Below are positions 27,703 to 46,239 of a stretch of 64,000 bases of DNA, in pieces. Every line of letters starts with the position of its first letter. Position 1 is the stretch's first letter. Source of the DNA: Cyanobacteria bacterium FACHB-DQ100 (GTDB taxonomy: Bacteria > Cyanobacteriota > Cyanobacteriia > Leptolyngbyales > Leptolyngbyaceae); the NCBI GenBank assembly GCA_014695195.1, contig JACJNW010000028.1, positions 372,001 through 436,000 of the forward strand, read 5' to 3'. The notes below the pieces were generated by a model. It ran no database searches. It saw only the letters and a list, made by a program, of their open reading frames with translations, and was not told the DNA's origin. Both the position numbers and the translations under genes were made by a program.

Positions 27703-29064
27703 CTATTCTTTTTTAGGATAGCGATCGCGGTTGAATTTAGCGCAGTGTTGCACAAAGCGTTTGGGAATTTCTGGAGTTGCGCCCCAGTGTAAATGCAGGT
27801 AGGAGGCGTGTAAGTTGGGCGATCGCCAGCCGTCGAATTGCTCGGTTTCGGTGAATTGGAACAGGGGGTGGGGGGGTGGAGAGGTGGGGGTGGAGCGATG
27901 GAATTCGTGTCCGTGAACGATCGTATTTTGAGCGACGATCGGTGTGTCTTCCAGCGTCATGGCACGACGATAACCGAGTGTCAGCCGCGATCGCATGACT
28001 GTTGTTGTGGGAATTGCTCCAACCATTGGAAAAGTATCGCCGGAGAAATCCACAATATTTTCACTCAGATACATTAATCCACCACATTCTGCATACGTAG
28101 GCATTTCCGATTGAATTGCAGTTTGGATGGCTTTGCGTGTCGCTTGATTTTCACTTAGCGTTACGGCAAACATTTCAGGAAAGCCGCCACCGAAATACAA
28201 ACCGTCGATGTCTTCGGGGAAATCGTCGTTTAGAGGACTCCATTCAATCAAGCTTGCACCGGATTGTTTGAGGAGTTCTAGATTGTCTTCGTAATAGAAA
28301 TTAAAAGCGGCATCACGGGCGATCGCGATTCGATACGTTTGGCTACGTTTGGGTTGATCGCTGCCCCCTAAATTCTCCACTTGTGGGGGACTTTGAACGG
28401 AAGTTAGGGGCATTAATGCTGCCCAATCGAAACAGGTTTCGCCGAGGTGAGCTAAGCGATCGATGAGTTCATTTAATCCGGGTAGCTCGTCGGTCGGGAC
28501 TAAACCGAGATGGCGATCAGGAATTTCTATCGCATTCTGTCGCCTTAATACTCCTAAAATCGGAATTTCTAACGGTTCTAGAGCAGATTTGAGCAATTCT
28601 AAATGTCGATCGCTGCCGACTCGATTCAGTACGACCCCTGCGAATTTCAAGCGGGGATCGAGTGAGCGATATCCATGCACGATCGCGGCAACTGAATACG
28701 ACAAACGGCTACAATCGACCACCAGTAAAATCGGTAAATCGAGCAGTCGAGCAATGTGAGCGGTACTGGCAAAATCTTTTTGTCCGGCTGCACCGTCGAA
28801 TAGTCCCATTACGCCTTCAACGATCGCGCAATTTCCCGCCTTTTGGGAAAAACACTGCTGCACATACGCTTCCGAAGTCAGCCTCGGATCAAGGTTGTAA
28901 CAAGCCTGACCGGTGACATGGCGATGAAACAGCGGATCAATATAATCAGGCCCGACCTTAAACGATCGTACCTGCAAATTTCGCCGTTTCAGAGCCGCTA
29001 ACAGCGCTAACGTGACTGTGGTTTTCCCGGCTCCGCTCCGTTCCCCTGCAATTACAAACGCCAT
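27703..29064 (-). CDS. cobB: Cobyrinate a,c-diamide synthase
   Basis: This 453-aa enzyme (CobB/CbiA) amidates the a and c side chains of cobyrinate using ATP and glutamine. The N-terminal P-loop GERSGAGKTTVTLALL is followed by FKVGPDYIDPLFH and the class I glutamine amidotransferase domain with the catalytic Cys in YAECGGLMYLS. C-terminal GHEFHRS is also family-typical. Oddities: a linker near residues 224-234 (SPPQVENLGGS) is encoded by a copy of the genomic CCCCCTAAAT repeat, and residues near 395 (TPTSPPPHP) coincide with a purine-rich GGGTGG tract. Both stay in frame. It leads the group with the unknown 280-aa protein. Confidence 0.93.
   Translation of the reverse strand: MAFVIAGERSGAGKTTVTLALLAALKRRNLQVRSFKVGPDYIDPLFHRHVTGQACYNLDPRLTSEAYVQQCFSQKAGNCAIVEGVMGLFDGAAGQKDFASTAHIARLLDLPILLVVDCSRLSYSVAAIVHGYRSLDPRLKFAGVVLNRVGSDRHLELLKSALEPLEIPILGVLRRQNAIEIPDRHLGLVPTDELPGLNELIDRLAHLGETCFDWAALMPLTSVQSPPQVENLGGSDQPKRSQTYRIAIARDAAFNFYYEDNLELLKQSGASLIEWSPLNDDFPEDIDGLYFGGGFPEMFAVTLSENQATRKAIQTAIQSEMPTYAECGGLMYLSENIVDFSGDTFPMVGAIPTTTVMRSRLTLGYRRAMTLEDTPIVAQNTIVHGHEFHRSTPTSPPPHPLFQFTETEQFDGWRSPNLHASYLHLHWGATPEIPKRFVQHCAKFNRDRYPKKE
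28364..28396. repeat. 33-bp palindromic repeat unit inside cobB
   Basis: CCCCCTAAATTCTCC, six spacer bases, then GGGGGACTTTGA. This 33-bp unit (11 codons) matches the two inverted units inside cobN at 43717-43821. It lies in the linker between the two domains of CobB and keeps the frame open. Confidence 0.8.
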
Positions 29065-29124
29065 ACTTTAGAGCAAAACACTATATTGATGTCAGTTGTT
29101 CGCTTCGATCATAAGTTCGAGTTG

Positions 29125-29157
29125 CCCCCAAATCCCCCTGAGTGGGGGATTTGGGGG
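29125..29157. repeat. Perfect 14-bp palindrome between cobB and opcA
   Basis: CCCCCAAATCCCCC (29125-29138), loop TGAGT, GGGGGATTTGGGGG (29144-29157). It is related to the units in cobB and cobN, but both arms carry the AAAT-type end. It could terminate opcA transcription, although no T run follows. Confidence 0.85.
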
Positions 29158-29203
29158 ACACGATAACTCAAAACGCAGCGAAACCGATCGCACTGACACC
29201 AAC

Positions 29204-30559
29204 CTACAGCTTAATGATTTTTGCTGTTACTGCCATGCTTTCTTCGTACAGCACATCCTGACCGACTCGGTGAAGCTGCTCACTCAAGAGCGTTTCTGCC
29301 TTTTGATCATTCAGCGGTGTCACCTGATTGATTCGACAAGACTGTGCGCCGCCGCTCGCTTCCATTCGCATACAGCCCGTTGTGCCAGAACACAAGACCG
29401 TACAGCAATCCACATTCGGATTCGTCGAAGACAGCTTCAGGCTCACCATGTCGCCCTTGATTTCTCCGATCGCAGCCGTCGGAATTCCGGCTAATTCCGC
29501 CTCAATCTTGCGACCGTTTGAAGCCGTAAAATATACCCGTTGTAAATCGTAGATATCTCCTTCGTGTTCACGAGAATCCGGTTCCCAGCCGAGCCGACCT
29601 GCTAACCAGCCGAGATACATCAGCGCTTGTGCCGGATTGCCCTTCTCGTAGTCGATCACCACACGATCGACTTCCCAAATTGCCTCGCGTCGTCCAGGCG
29701 CATCGAACGCCTCTGCCGCAAGTTCTTGCCAGGCGGCTAACCGTCGCCAGTTCAAATCGATCACAGAAACACCATCGTCAATCAGCGCGGACAGCTTCAG
29801 CAGGTCGCCCTCGGTATCCGCAGTAAATCGGCTCGAATCGAAAATCACCTGGCTTGAGAACTTTGCCAACCGTTGAAACAACGTTTGGTCAAGATTGGGC
29901 GTACCCTTCCACCAGATAATTCTAGGCAATTCACTAATCAACAGCGACGAAGTGAGATCGTCCACTCGCTCAAGCGCAGATTCCGTTCCCCGGAGCATGA
30001 TGTATTCGCAGCACACCAGCGTTCCGTGATTTAATTTATTAATCGGACAGTACGCCGAGACCTGAGCTGAGACGCCTTCATCTTCGCCTGCAATCGGAAA
30101 CAGCGAAATAATGCGGCAAGGGTTCTGGCTGGCAACTACATCAGCAATTCCACTTCCAGCAGCATCAGACACATAGCGGGGTGCGTTGCTATCTCCGATC
30201 GATTCACCCTTACGTTTAGCCAGGTCTTCACGCAGTTTCGTCAGCAGTCCGGGGCTGGACTTGCCATCGATCGGTAAGCCGTAAGCCGCTTGAGCCGCAT
30301 GAAGTGCGGCTTCGGTGCGAGGGCCATCAATACCATCGACAGGCCCGGTATAAAAGCCCATCATCGCAAGCAATTGCTGGGTTTCTTCTGGCTCATAAAC
30401 CACCAGGGTAAACGATGTCGCACGAGTCGCAACCATGGATGAGCCGTCGCCTGTCGCGCTGTAGGACTGCCAGATCTGATTGAGTTCCTGCTCGATGTCG
30501 TTCAGTGAGACATCTTTTGGGGCTTGGAGGGAAACGAGCGGGGCGGTTTTAGTAGCCAT
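29204..30559 (-). CDS. opcA: Glucose-6-phosphate dehydrogenase assembly protein OpcA
   Basis: This 451-aa protein activates or assembles cyanobacterial G6PDH, redox-controlled through thioredoxin. It begins with TAPLVSLQAPKDVSLNDIEQELNQIW. A peptidoglycan-binding-like repeat (GFYTGPVDGIDGPRTEAALHAAQAAYG, about residues 68-95) is embedded, as in other cyanobacterial OpcA proteins I recall. The OpcA core runs from SLFPIAGEDEGVSAQVSAYC to the end. Cysteines are present in the core and near the C-terminus (DCCTVLCSG), and could be redox sites. It is 83 bp downstream of zwf, the last gene of fbp-tal-zwf-opcA. Confidence 0.95.
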   Translation of the reverse strand: MATKTAPLVSLQAPKDVSLNDIEQELNQIWQSYSATGDGSSMVATRATSFTLVVYEPEETQQLLAMMGFYTGPVDGIDGPRTEAALHAAQAAYGLPIDGKSSPGLLTKLREDLAKRKGESIGDSNAPRYVSDAAGSGIADVVASQNPCRIISLFPIAGEDEGVSAQVSAYCPINKLNHGTLVCCEYIMLRGTESALERVDDLTSSLLISELPRIIWWKGTPNLDQTLFQRLAKFSSQVIFDSSRFTADTEGDLLKLSALIDDGVSVIDLNWRRLAAWQELAAEAFDAPGRREAIWEVDRVVIDYEKGNPAQALMYLGWLAGRLGWEPDSREHEGDIYDLQRVYFTASNGRKIEAELAGIPTAAIGEIKGDMVSLKLSSTNPNVDCCTVLCSGTTGCMRMEASGGAQSCRINQVTPLNDQKAETLLSEQLHRVGQDVLYEESMAVTAKIIKL

Positions 30560-42025: not shown

Positions 42026-42226
42026 ATGGATCGCCCTTTGCCCTTGTTTAAATTTCCGTTGTCTTGGACATTAGTGTTAGTGATTGCGATCGCCCTCTGT
42101 TTCAATACGCCGATCGCTCAGACTGCTAAACCCCTCAGCGAGTTAAAGATTGCGCTGCAAGTTTCAGAAGCAACCTCAACCGGACGATCGCGCCGTTGGA
42201 TCAAAGTATCGCTGCTGGGATTTTAG
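42026..42226 (+). CDS. Possible short exported protein or gene remnant (66 aa)
   Basis: The frame encodes a convincing signal peptide (FPLSWTLVLVIAIALCFNTP then IAQTA) but only about 34 mature residues, ending in SRRWIKVSLLGF. No ribosome-binding site is evident. It shares the tetranucleotide TTAG with the convergent cobN stop. It may be the 5' remnant of a longer secreted protein, a real small peptide, or chance. Confidence 0.3.
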   Translation: MDRPLPLFKFPLSWTLVLVIAIALCFNTPIAQTAKPLSELKIALQVSEATSTGRSRRWIKVSLLGF

Positions 42227-45200
42227 GAAATTTGTCCTTCGATCACGCCTTCTGCTTCAAGCACGATCTCTCTTAGTTGCTCTAGGGTTTTCTCGTTGGC
42301 TTGTTGCCAAAATCCGCGCTGATTGGCTTCGAGCAATCGTTCTGCCATATCTCGCAGTGCCCAAGGATTTTTAGATTGAATAAAATTCTGTACAGTCGAA
42401 TCGAATAGATACGCTTCGGCAACCCCTTGATACATATAGTCTTCAACGCATTGAGCCGTGGCATCGTAAGCGAAGAGGAAGTCGATCGTCGCCGCCAGTT
42501 CAAATGCGCCTTTATAACCGTGTCGCATCGCGCCTGCAATCCATTTAGGGTTAATCACCCGCGATCGATACACTCGCGCAATTTGTTGTTTGAGCGATCG
42601 GATCTTCGGATTTTCAGGCAGGGAATGATCACCAAAGTAAGTCGTGGGATTTTTGCCTTGAGTCGAGCGAACGGCTGCGGTTAATCCACCTTGAAATTGA
42701 TAGTAATCGTCGGAATCGAGTAGATCATGTTCCTGGTTATCCTGATTTTGCAGAACGATTTGCATTTGGTTTAATCGATTCTGGAATGCTTCAGGAGCAG
42801 ATTGAGCAACACCGGAACTACTGTAAGCGTAACTACTCCAGTTAATGTAAGCGCGAGCGAGATCTCCATCGGTTTCCCAATTCTGAGATTCAATCAATCC
42901 TTGGAGTCCAGCCCCATACGCACCCGGTTTTGAGCCGAAAATGCGATGGCGCGATCGACGATCGGCAAGTTCAGCACTCAATCCGGATGCTTGCCAAACT
43001 TCTGATTCTTGCTTGACCTGAGCCGCTAAGGGATTTTGATCGGGGGGTTCATCGAGTTGAGCGATCGCACTTACTGCTTGATCAAATAAATCAATCAAAT
43101 TCGGAAACGCATCGCGGAAAAATCCTGAAATCCTCAAAGTGACATCGACACGCGGACGACTCAGCACCGATAACGGCAGAATTTCAAAATCAACCACGCG
43201 GCGAGAAATGCCATCCCAAACAGGTTGAACTCCGAGTAATGCTAAGGCTTCTGCTAAATCGTCTCCGCCTGTTCGCATCGTCGAAGTCCCCCAGATTGAA
43301 AGCCCGATCGTGCGGGGATATTCGCCGTTTTCCTGGGTGTAGCGTTCGACGATCGCTTCTGCGGCTTTACGTCCGACTTGCCATGCGCTTTCGGTGGGAA
43401 TCGATCGGATATCAACCGAGTAGAAATTCCGTCCGGTAGGTAGAACTTCGGGTCGTCCGCGTGTGGGTGCACCTGATGGTGCGGCGGGGACGTAACCGCC
43501 ATTTAAGCCATGCAGCAGGAAGTCGATTTCTTGATGAGTGTTTTGCAAAGCTGGAAGCAAAAAGGATCGAATCCAGTTGAGTTCGGCGGTGTAGGCGCGG
43601 TCTTGGGGGATGTCTTGCTGGAGTAGGCGATCGATTAAGTTTGCGGCTTCGGTTTCGATCGCGGCGATCGCGTCTCCGACGGTTCGGAATTTTGCGCTTC
43701 GGTTGGGTGAGTTCTGCCCCCTAAATCCCCCACGAGTGGGGGACTTTGAAGTGCGTGAATTCCCTTGCAGTTGGAAAACCTCCTCGATCTCAAAGTCCCC
43801 CAGAATGGGGGATTTAGGGGGCTTCCCGGACTCCTCATCGCAGCGAATCACTTCAAGCGACTCGTCTAAACGCTCTGCCGGATCAGCCGTTAACGGATCA
43901 AAATCAAGTCCCCAATCTTCAGCAATGGCGCGGGTTAACCCAACTCGATCGGGCTGCGGATGACGTGCGATCGCCACAATCAAATCTCTCAATTGCCGCC
44001 CTTCTGGACATTTTCCGAAAATATGTAATCCATCTCGAATCTGTGCTTCTTTTAATTCGCAGAGATAGCGATCGGTATCCGTAATCAAATCGAGAATCGA
44101 ATCCGCATCGCTAGGAAGTTCAGATTTAAGATTATCTTGTTCAACCAGATCAATAATGCGATCGCGAACCACATTTAACCGGGATGGATCAAGATTTTGC
44201 GCTTCGTAATATTCATCGATCAGCGCCTCTAATTTCTGCAAGCCACCATAAAGCTCTGCACGAGTCATCGGTGGCGTAAGGTGATCGAGAATGACCGCTT
44301 GGGCGCGACGTTTAGCTTGGGAGCCTTCACCCGGATCATTGACGATAAACGGATAGAAATGCGGTAAAGCGCCGATCGCAATCTCAGGAAAACAATTCTC
44401 AGAAAGCGCCACGCTTTTTCCCGGAAGCCATTCGAGATTTCCGTGTTTGCCAACGTGAACGATCGCTTGTGCGCCAAAGGTTTCTCTCACCCAGTAGTAA
44501 AACGCTAAATATTGATGCGTAGGTTCTAAATCTGGAGCGTGATAGTTCAAAGACGGATCAAGATCATATCCGCGTGCAGGCTGAATTCCAACGAACACAT
44601 TACCAAACTGAATTCCAGGAATCGCAAACGATTCTGCGGCTGAACTCCAGCGATCGACGATCGATTCTTGAACCGATGGCGGTAATGTTGAAAAATAGGT
44701 TTGATATTCCGATAACGATAGCGACTGATTCACATTGCGTAATTCTCTCGCCTCTGGATCATTGGTCACACCTCTCGTTAATTGCAGAACTAATTCATCT
44801 CCATTCTCAGGAATATTATCAACCGTATATCCTTCGCGTTGTAGCGCTTTGAGAATTTCAATACAGCTTGCAGGTGTATCCAAACCAACACCATTGGCTA
44901 GGCGACCATCGCGAGTTGGGTAATTCGCTAAAATCAGCGCAACTTTACGATCGCGCTTCTCACTCCGCCGCAGTTCGACCCAATTTCGAGTTAAATCCGC
45001 AACGAATTCGACGCGATCGTGTACCGCCTGATAAGTTACAACTTCCGTTTGCAACTCCGGATGTCTTGCTTGCACCGCCTTAAACGAAATTGCTCGACTA
45101 ATAATCCGTCCATCCACTTCCGGCAATGCCACATTAATTGCAGTATCTCGCGGCGAAAGTCCCCGCAGTTGTGCCTGCCATTGTTCCACTGTGCCACCGC

Positions 45201-46104
45201 TTAAAATCACTTGCAGCACCGGAATATCTAACGTTTGCCAGAGTTCAGGTGCATCCGCAGCAGCAGTCATTCCAAACGGAATCGCAGAACCCAGCGAGAA
45301 GCTTGTGGTATTCAGCAGAATATCAATACTCGATCGATCCTTCGGTTGAAAATAAGTCAGCAATTCACTTTGAACATCCGGATCACGCAGCGAAGAAACA
45401 AAAACGGGAACGGGACATAAATCACGATCGCATAACGCTGCACACAGGTCATCGATCACCGCAGTATTACTCGAAAGATAATGAGCGCGATAAAATAAAA
45501 TTCCAACTTTGCGATCGCTGCAACGTTTACCCGATCGATAGCTACACTGCTCACCTGTTCGATACAATCCCACACGTGGCACAACCTGTGGATCAGCGAA
45601 CTCAGCCTCAACGCCCAAATAAGTCTTCGCTAAAAACTGAAGCGCATTGCGATAGTTCTCGGCTCCACCTTCGTTGAAATAGCGCCAAACTCGCTCAACC
45701 TGAGCAAACGGAACCGTTGAATGGCTCATCAAATCTAAATCCGGTCGATCGTCCCCTGGCAGCACAATCAAAGTCGCCCCCGAATTTTCTGCCGTTTCGC
45801 GCACGACTTCCAACCCATACGACCAATACGACCGCCCCCCAATAATCCGCAGCACAATCACCTTTGCTGCTTCTAACACCTCTTCTGCATAGGTATCGAT
45901 CGTCAATTGCTGCTGAAGCTGAAGCAAATTCACACCCCGCACTTCGGGAAATCCGGAGGGCAATTGAGTAATCGCGCTGGAGAGCGTTTGAATATCGGTA
46001 TCTGCTGCCGTGATCACCACGATCGGGGCAGGAGCTTGCTCGATAAAGACAACGCCTTCGAGATCAGGAGTCCAACCTCCAGGAGTCGCAGCGATTCGGT
46101 GCAT
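42223..46104 (-). CDS. cobN: Cobaltochelatase subunit CobN
   Basis: This protein of about 1293 aa is the large chelatase subunit of the CobN/ChlH family, which inserts cobalt into the corrin ring with an AAA+ motor. The start MHRIAATPGGWTPDLEG at ATG 46104 is favoured over a TTG 21 nt upstream. Family segments include TYLGVEAEFADP, VHVGKHGNLEWLPGKSVALS and TMRTGGDDLAEALALLGVQP. The N-terminus and the absence of ChlH features favour CobN. A linker of about 35 residues (near residues 762-796) is encoded by an inverted pair of genomic repeat units, in frame. No cobS or cobT is nearby; in cyanobacteria ChlI/ChlD are thought to serve instead. Confidence 0.92.
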   Translation of the reverse strand: MHRIAATPGGWTPDLEGVVFIEQAPAPIVVITAADTDIQTLSSAITQLPSGFPEVRGVNLLQLQQQLTIDTYAEEVLEAAKVIVLRIIGGRSYWSYGLEVVRETAENSGATLIVLPGDDRPDLDLMSHSTVPFAQVERVWRYFNEGGAENYRNALQFLAKTYLGVEAEFADPQVVPRVGLYRTGEQCSYRSGKRCSDRKVGILFYRAHYLSSNTAVIDDLCAALCDRDLCPVPVFVSSLRDPDVQSELLTYFQPKDRSSIDILLNTTSFSLGSAIPFGMTAAADAPELWQTLDIPVLQVILSGGTVEQWQAQLRGLSPRDTAINVALPEVDGRIISRAISFKAVQARHPELQTEVVTYQAVHDRVEFVADLTRNWVELRRSEKRDRKVALILANYPTRDGRLANGVGLDTPASCIEILKALQREGYTVDNIPENGDELVLQLTRGVTNDPEARELRNVNQSLSLSEYQTYFSTLPPSVQESIVDRWSSAAESFAIPGIQFGNVFVGIQPARGYDLDPSLNYHAPDLEPTHQYLAFYYWVRETFGAQAIVHVGKHGNLEWLPGKSVALSENCFPEIAIGALPHFYPFIVNDPGEGSQAKRRAQAVILDHLTPPMTRAELYGGLQKLEALIDEYYEAQNLDPSRLNVVRDRIIDLVEQDNLKSELPSDADSILDLITDTDRYLCELKEAQIRDGLHIFGKCPEGRQLRDLIVAIARHPQPDRVGLTRAIAEDWGLDFDPLTADPAERLDESLEVIRCDEESGKPPKSPILGDFEIEEVFQLQGNSRTSKSPTRGGFRGQNSPNRSAKFRTVGDAIAAIETEAANLIDRLLQQDIPQDRAYTAELNWIRSFLLPALQNTHQEIDFLLHGLNGGYVPAAPSGAPTRGRPEVLPTGRNFYSVDIRSIPTESAWQVGRKAAEAIVERYTQENGEYPRTIGLSIWGTSTMRTGGDDLAEALALLGVQPVWDGISRRVVDFEILPLSVLSRPRVDVTLRISGFFRDAFPNLIDLFDQAVSAIAQLDEPPDQNPLAAQVKQESEVWQASGLSAELADRRSRHRIFGSKPGAYGAGLQGLIESQNWETDGDLARAYINWSSYAYSSSGVAQSAPEAFQNRLNQMQIVLQNQDNQEHDLLDSDDYYQFQGGLTAAVRSTQGKNPTTYFGDHSLPENPKIRSLKQQIARVYRSRVINPKWIAGAMRHGYKGAFELAATIDFLFAYDATAQCVEDYMYQGVAEAYLFDSTVQNFIQSKNPWALRDMAERLLEANQRGFWQQANEKTLEQLREIVLEAEGVIEGQIS
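43717..43821. repeat. 105-bp inverted repeat pair inside cobN
   Basis: Outer arms CCCCCTAAATCCCCC (43717-43731) and GGGGGATTTAGGGGG (43807-43821) match over 15 bp. Inner arms GGGGGACTTTGA (43738-43749) and TCAAAGTCCCCC (43790-43801) match over 12 bp. The element is two 32-33-bp units in opposite orientation about 40 bp apart, 105 bp in all (35 codons), with no stop in the cobN frame. Confidence 0.92.
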
Positions 46105-46239
46105 AAACACATCGTGAGAGGGCAAGCTCTTAATCTACCGTGAATTCGCCGAAACGCCGAATTACTGCATCGAACAATCCACAATTTTTGGCTTATTGCG
46201 ATCGCCCATTATGATCGAAGCTGAGAGTGAGGAAAAACC

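Follow-up and report, generated by a model that had tools for sequence, protein, structure and literature searches.

Palindromic insertions read in frame within protein genes are described for Rickettsia in a 2024 review, which calls in-frame fusions with miniature inverted-repeat transposable elements (MITEs) not unusual and a comparable route in other prokaryotes conceivable (PMC10969869). Inverted pairs of repetitive extragenic palindromic (REP) sequences, the REP doublets forming hairpins (REPINs), are described in another source (PMC3116915), and REPs and MITEs of cyanobacteria in a third (PMC3733652). Cyanobacterial MITEs treated there include Nezha and the elements MITEb and MITEe of Anabaena PCC 7120 (PMC10969869, PMC3733652). 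The present case is a segment of the cobaltochelatase gene cobN in a 64,000-nt stretch (the window) of the genome of Cyanobacteria bacterium FACHB-DQ100 (G000). The segment is very probably the remnant of a MITE, which was inserted in a CobN loop between two helices and now forms a linker predicted to be disordered. Very small mobile repeats of cyanobacteria are reportedly the subject of a 2008 work by Elhai et al., to judge by its title.

The extra segment of cobN

The features of the gene and of its extra segment were located as follows; family C is a group of repeats defined in the next section.

42223..46125, minus strand: cobN, cobaltochelatase subunit of 1300 aa with a TTG start as listed (CobN by TIGR02257)
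43790..43822, minus strand: hairpin unit 1 in gene sense, GCCCCCTAAATCCCCCATTCTGGGGGACTTTGA
43716..43749, plus strand: hairpin unit 2, an inverted copy whose loop is one base longer
43690..43866, minus strand: extra CobN segment, residues 754-812 (59 residues, 56 net), from alignment with congeners
43684..43856, no strand assigned: probable MITE-derived insert with outer ends degenerate or lost (family C profile match)

A preliminary description of the window had reported two inverted hairpin units in cobN, and both were found, at 43716-43749 and 43790-43822. The perfect arms, which it gave as 15 bp (outer) and 12 bp (inner), were present but longer: 17 bp for the outer arms (43716-43732 / 43806-43822) and 13 bp for the inner arms (43737-43749 / 43790-43802). 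The 105 bp said to be open over 35 codons corresponded to codons 769-803 of the 1300-aa frame, in phase 0 and free of stops. The inverted pair was therefore real, but the borders 43717-43821 were too narrow, the foreign part covering about 43684-43866. With up to 3 mismatches, the outer 17-mer had 4 matches in the window, against 0.08 expected.

Alignment with genomes of the same genus showed that CobN of G007 (95% identical) and G001 (90% identical) carried the insert, its frame being open in all three carrier species, and that CobN of G002, G004, G005, and G006 lacked it; CobN of G003 was cut off by a contig end. In G004 and G006, three residues replaced residues 754-812 (56 net fewer). In G004, the counterpart of residue 755 was followed directly by that of residue 812. 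With four congeners free of the linker, CobN homologues do not all share a linker of equal length and unrelated DNA, the pattern under which the match had been said to be coincidental.

The position in the protein was predicted with an AlphaFold2 model of CobN residues 642-1300 (51-row alignment, mean predicted local distance difference test (pLDDT) 74.7, predicted template modelling score 0.64). Residues 760-810, which separate two helices, had a pLDDT of <50 and no secondary structure; the following loop, at about residues 836-845, came after the second helix. Mapped on the model, as had been proposed, the linker falls in a predicted disordered loop. The fold matches of the model under E 0.001 were structures of CobN, ChlH, and HmuS. 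In the solved CobN structure 9uk9, about 15 residues stood between the matched parts, vs about 59 in CobN of the window.

Family C and the dispersed hairpin unit

The hairpin unit GTCCCCCANNNTGGGGGATTTAGGGGG was found at 106 places (≤3 mismatches) in the 5.5-Mb genome, and its reversed control at 0. With ≤2 mismatches, it occurred in 19 of the 58 genomes searched, including all eight searched of the genus (this genome counted). A census of G000, which covered the window and the fetched stretches around the unit matches listed, with their neighbours, and which may miss degenerate copies, assigned 163 units to 100 elements, of which 63 were pairs (60 of them divergent) and 37 were single units. 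Spacers of 30-32 bp (26 pairs, most of them in family B) and of 47-50 bp (25 pairs, family C) formed two clusters, and among the fetched copies the unit occurred in families with differing ends.

Family C is bounded by inverted repeats of the ACGTNAGTTCGACG type, which were found at 38 places (≤1 mismatch) vs 6 for the reversed control. Twenty-eight terminal-repeat places were inspected, of which 7 had no unit nearby and one of these 7 was a copy of an insertion sequence (IS). Thirteen elements with both ends recognisable and with usable units were chosen; one degenerate and one shortened element were omitted. These elements were 192-198 bp long, had terminal inverted repeats, and held 3 open frames out of 78. 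Their flanking 7-mers were identical in 6 elements, agreed at 6/7 bases in 2, and agreed at 3-4/7 in 5, with a mean agreement of 5.4/7 within vs 3.3 between elements. On contig C14, an element of about 1 kb with family-C-like ends and TAAAATC on both flanks encoded an IS982-family transposase of 303 aa (NF033520, E 1e-76). The genome had 12 IS982-like matches, four of them above the family cut-off. According to its terminal repeats, the lack of a transposase gene, the target duplications, and the presence in the genome of an autonomous IS with like ends, family C is a MITE family.

A profile of 195 positions was built from the 13 elements, with the cobN copy excluded. It matched the window at 43685-43856 on the plus strand (E 8.8e-33, profile positions 13-183) and at 43851-43684 on the minus strand (E 3.2e-32, profile positions 17-187), and it also matched CobN of G007 (E 5.6e-33) and of G001 (E 3.2e-31). 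In G004 and G006, the profile gave nothing under E 1 at the CobN locus. An ancestral CobN linker that resembles the repeat by chance or through G/C-rich codon usage would agree with the loop length at this site, which varies across cyanobacteria. However, a profile match of about 1e-32, a unit repeated at 106 genome places, and the absence from four same-genus CobNs, which refutes such a linker unless it was lost there, make this explanation hardly credible.

Divergent pairs made up 60 of the 63 paired elements, the units of family C were better conserved than the spacers, and the copies were mostly outside long frames, as in a REPIN, in which two inverted REP sequences are moved by a REP-associated tyrosine transposase (RAYT, TnpA-REP). 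Against such an origin, which we consider very unlikely, no Y1_Tnp (PF01797) match was found in the genome, the control being positive in 5 of 14 genomes; family C has its own outer terminal repeats and target duplications; and single units accounted for 37 of the 100 elements.

Under the preferred explanation by a MITE, that is a short transposon that encodes no transposase itself, an element of family C would have landed in the CobN loop between the two helices, and a transposase of the IS982 family, which the genome still encodes, would have moved the family in trans. The insert would be translated as part of CobN, and would persist through the tolerance of the loop for length and sequence, not through a function of the peptide.

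Several points weigh against this sequence of events. No intact terminal repeats or target duplication were recognised at the cobN copy, where the profile match reached positions 13-183 or 17-187 of 195, so the case for transposition comes from its relatives, and 5 of the 13 relatives had poorly matching flanks. If the insertion duplicated 7 bp, a frameshift would result for 12 of the 13 elements; together with the scarcity of open frames in the family (3/78), this requires either an additional indel or an atypical copy. The translation of the insert is read from the conservation of its frame. In the CobN gene tree, G001, G000 with G007, and the group of G006, G004, and G003 formed a polytomy, so one gain followed by loss and two gains both fit.

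The preliminary description had proposed to count the unit in the genome and inside genes. The unit did recur, and it was in frame in cobN and cobB, but most copies were intergenic: a frame was open for at least 100 residues on either side in 2 of the 100 elements, those of cobN and cobB, both in the window. The remaining in-gene candidates of G000 touched frame ends or sat in doubtful frames. Three of the candidates considered were rejected, namely C28:332139 (upstream of a dehydrogenase-like frame), C23:249011 (its frame ended in unrelated sequence), and C37:154177 (close to the end of a low-complexity frame). Well-kept units are more readily found by the genome-wide search; the poorly kept cobB copy surfaced only in the scan of the whole window, so in-gene copies elsewhere may have been missed. 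Insertions that land in genes would mostly be lost.

Two further copies in G000 were observed. In locus L086 (G000:C35:19056), the unit supplied the final residues of a membrane-protein-like frame. Some elements looked chimeric: in locus L080 (the G000:C34:112185 region), the left half of a family C element and the right half of a family B element met at the shared hairpin unit, which suggests recombination between MITE families.

Hairpin arms and linkers in other genes

Both 17-bp outer arms, read directly as DNA, were identical across the three carrier species. Between G000 and G001, 229 of 545 fourfold sites differed in the host part of cobN, and 41 of 84 aligned nucleotides differed in the spacer and the outer regions of the insert. 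The 3' arm was read as GGFRG in G000 and as GDLGG in G001, in a different frame and with a loop that differed by one nucleotide; for this reason the codon-aligned comparison gave 20 differences in 72 for the arm codons of G000 and G001. Between G000 and G007, which share the frame, 7 of 72 differed, five of them in loops. As the arms were identical despite the frame change and the diverged spacers, their conservation follows the DNA and not the peptide, which points to maintenance of the arms at the DNA level. Since some of the genomic copies were detected through their units, that sample leans towards conserved ones; the orthologues of cobN were retrieved by protein and do not have this bias.

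The presence of the insert in three species, the identity of its 17-bp arms, and the folding of the 105-nt RNA (-63.7 kcal/mol vs a shuffle mean of -35.6, z -8.4) would also be expected if the insert were selected, its Pro/Gly-rich linker or stable mRNA hairpin tuning the assembly or translation of CobN. Four congeners manage without it, however, 41 of 84 non-hairpin nucleotides differ, and one arm is in another frame, so the peptide is not conserved. Selection of the insert is therefore improbable, and peptide selection as the main force was rejected, as the spacers diverge and the frames shift. Selection on the hairpin itself may be an alternative reason for the conservation of the arms.

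Hairpin loops were also found in flipped form: ATTCT in G000 corresponded to AGAAT in G007, and ACTCGT to ACGAGT. Nineteen G000 copies that clustered by flanks of ≥90% similarity had the loops GAA (10 copies), TTC (8), and GCA (1); another cluster, of 13 copies, had GTA 11 times and never its inverse. The near-equal numbers of GAA and TTC in almost identical copies look as if the loop were frequently inverted. Template switching or gene conversion at the hairpins, by exchange among copies or of a unit with its own mirror image, could keep the units near-identical and would explain the arms, the flips, and the chimeras, although this step is less secure than the insertion itself.

Two further matches to family C were located in the window.

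27703..29064, minus strand: cobB, cobyrinic acid a,c-diamide synthase (CbiA 4-186, GATase_3 245-429)
28330..28403, minus strand: half family C element in the interdomain linker of CobB, in its reading frame (profile 109-187, E 2e-12)
29093..29182, plus strand: degenerate family C relative between cobB and an OpcA-like gene (E 3.5e-9)

The copy of the unit in cobB (28363-28395) and the variant between genes (near 29143), both already named in the preliminary description, were thus recovered by the family C profile. The CobB insert sits between the CbiA and GATase_3 domains. At the same linker, CobB of G001 had a nearly full in-frame element (profile 11-193, E 1.4e-28) and CobB of G007 and G003 had half elements. 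CobB of G002, G004, G005, and G006 had no element; G006 had another palindromic segment there. A different hairpin repeat, with AGACGC-type stems, was observed in the same linkers in L272 (CobB of G006) and L233 (CobN of Nostoc sp. S13), where it is read as DAINRVST-like peptides. The OpcA-like protein (29204-30559) had 451 aa vs 313 positions in its family profile, with weaker matches of residues 12-111 to unrelated families.

CobN of other cyanobacteria contained different hairpin DNA, in loop 1 in G018 and in loop 2 in G029, G013, and G056. The general unit GTCCCCCN{4,9}GGGGGATTTAGGGGG occurred at 22, 69, 19, and 24 places in the genomes of G018, G029, G013, and G056; the reversed-pattern controls gave 0, except 1 in G013. 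The unit in CobN of G013 deviated from the exact general pattern by one base. Recurrence of the unit throughout the genome applies to this genus and to these four genomes. The second CobN loops of G010, G026, and G034 were G/C-rich and could not be assigned to any repeat.

Hairpins were counted in 92 CobN loci (the 80 best-scoring of 568 relatives from named genomes, and 12 from earlier searches). This set includes near relatives and at least one double record (L189 = L043, without a loop hairpin). The stretch counted comprised both CobN loops and the helix between them. In its 18.9 kb, 39 G/C-rich perfect 7-bp hairpins were found vs 52 in the remaining 336.9 kb; 2.9 would be expected in the loop stretch (Poisson P ~4e-30, a value that ignores relatedness). 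Such hairpins occurred in the loop stretch of 24 of the 92 CobNs and elsewhere in 28; those of 7 of the 24 were of neither the C-run nor the CCCTCTC kind. Under a looser hairpin definition, the loop region had 30 and the rest 55.

In G029, 57 of the 69 units were examined. Six were inside four genes (at least 100 residues open on both sides), and one ended a frame. The genes encode CobN, an XdhC-type protein, a family-38 mannosidase, and an NB-ARC/TPR protein, and in the three proteins scanned with Pfam the units fell between domains. CobN as the sole target was dropped, since the in-frame copies in the other G029 genes showed that it was not unique. In the XdhC-type protein (L174:574-1773), three tandem in-frame units (DPPKSPLKRGTLNI) stood between its two domains.

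A wider proposal is tentative, and we hold it with more doubt than confidence: loops between domains, in CobN and in further cyanobacterial enzymes, may be recurrent landing pads that turn hairpin DNA into linkers. In-frame hairpins might then evolve in concert with their genomic family by template switching or gene conversion, and the DNA repeat, not peptide selection, would write the linker.

Comparison with described repeats

Among the best literature matches listed, which cover the literature in part, nothing dealt with in-frame repeats in CobN or with the family C element. Family C resembles bacterial MITEs in its short length, terminal inverted repeats, target duplication, and related IS in the genome. 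Unlike those, its body holds a G/C hairpin unit shared with families whose ends differ, and clear ends have been lost from the cobN copy. It resembles REPINs in the inverted pairs of palindromic units (60/63 divergent) and in being mostly extragenic, but no RAYT was found in the genome by the PF01797 search, and outer terminal repeats are present.

The preliminary description likened the palindromic pair to the Rickettsia palindromic elements (RPEs). The pair is indeed placed in frame, but it is only the core of a MITE of about 195 bp with IS982-like ends. The resemblance to RPEs, compared by description, holds for the effect: both are dispersed palindromic repeats read in frame in unrelated genes, here cobN, cobB, and four genes of G029. 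It does not extend to the element, as family C has no conserved open reading frame (3/78 frames open; one arm in two frames in orthologues), 2 of the 100 elements examined in this genome are deep in genes, and the family ends match an IS of the IS982 family. In-frame palindromic elements are best known from Rickettsia, and are met here in cyanobacteria in a vitamin B12 enzyme. This case offers congeners without the insertion, an IS that is a plausible parent, and different hairpin DNA at the same CobN stretch in other lineages, so that transposon-born protein linkers, and their neutrality, become testable in ordinary enzymes.
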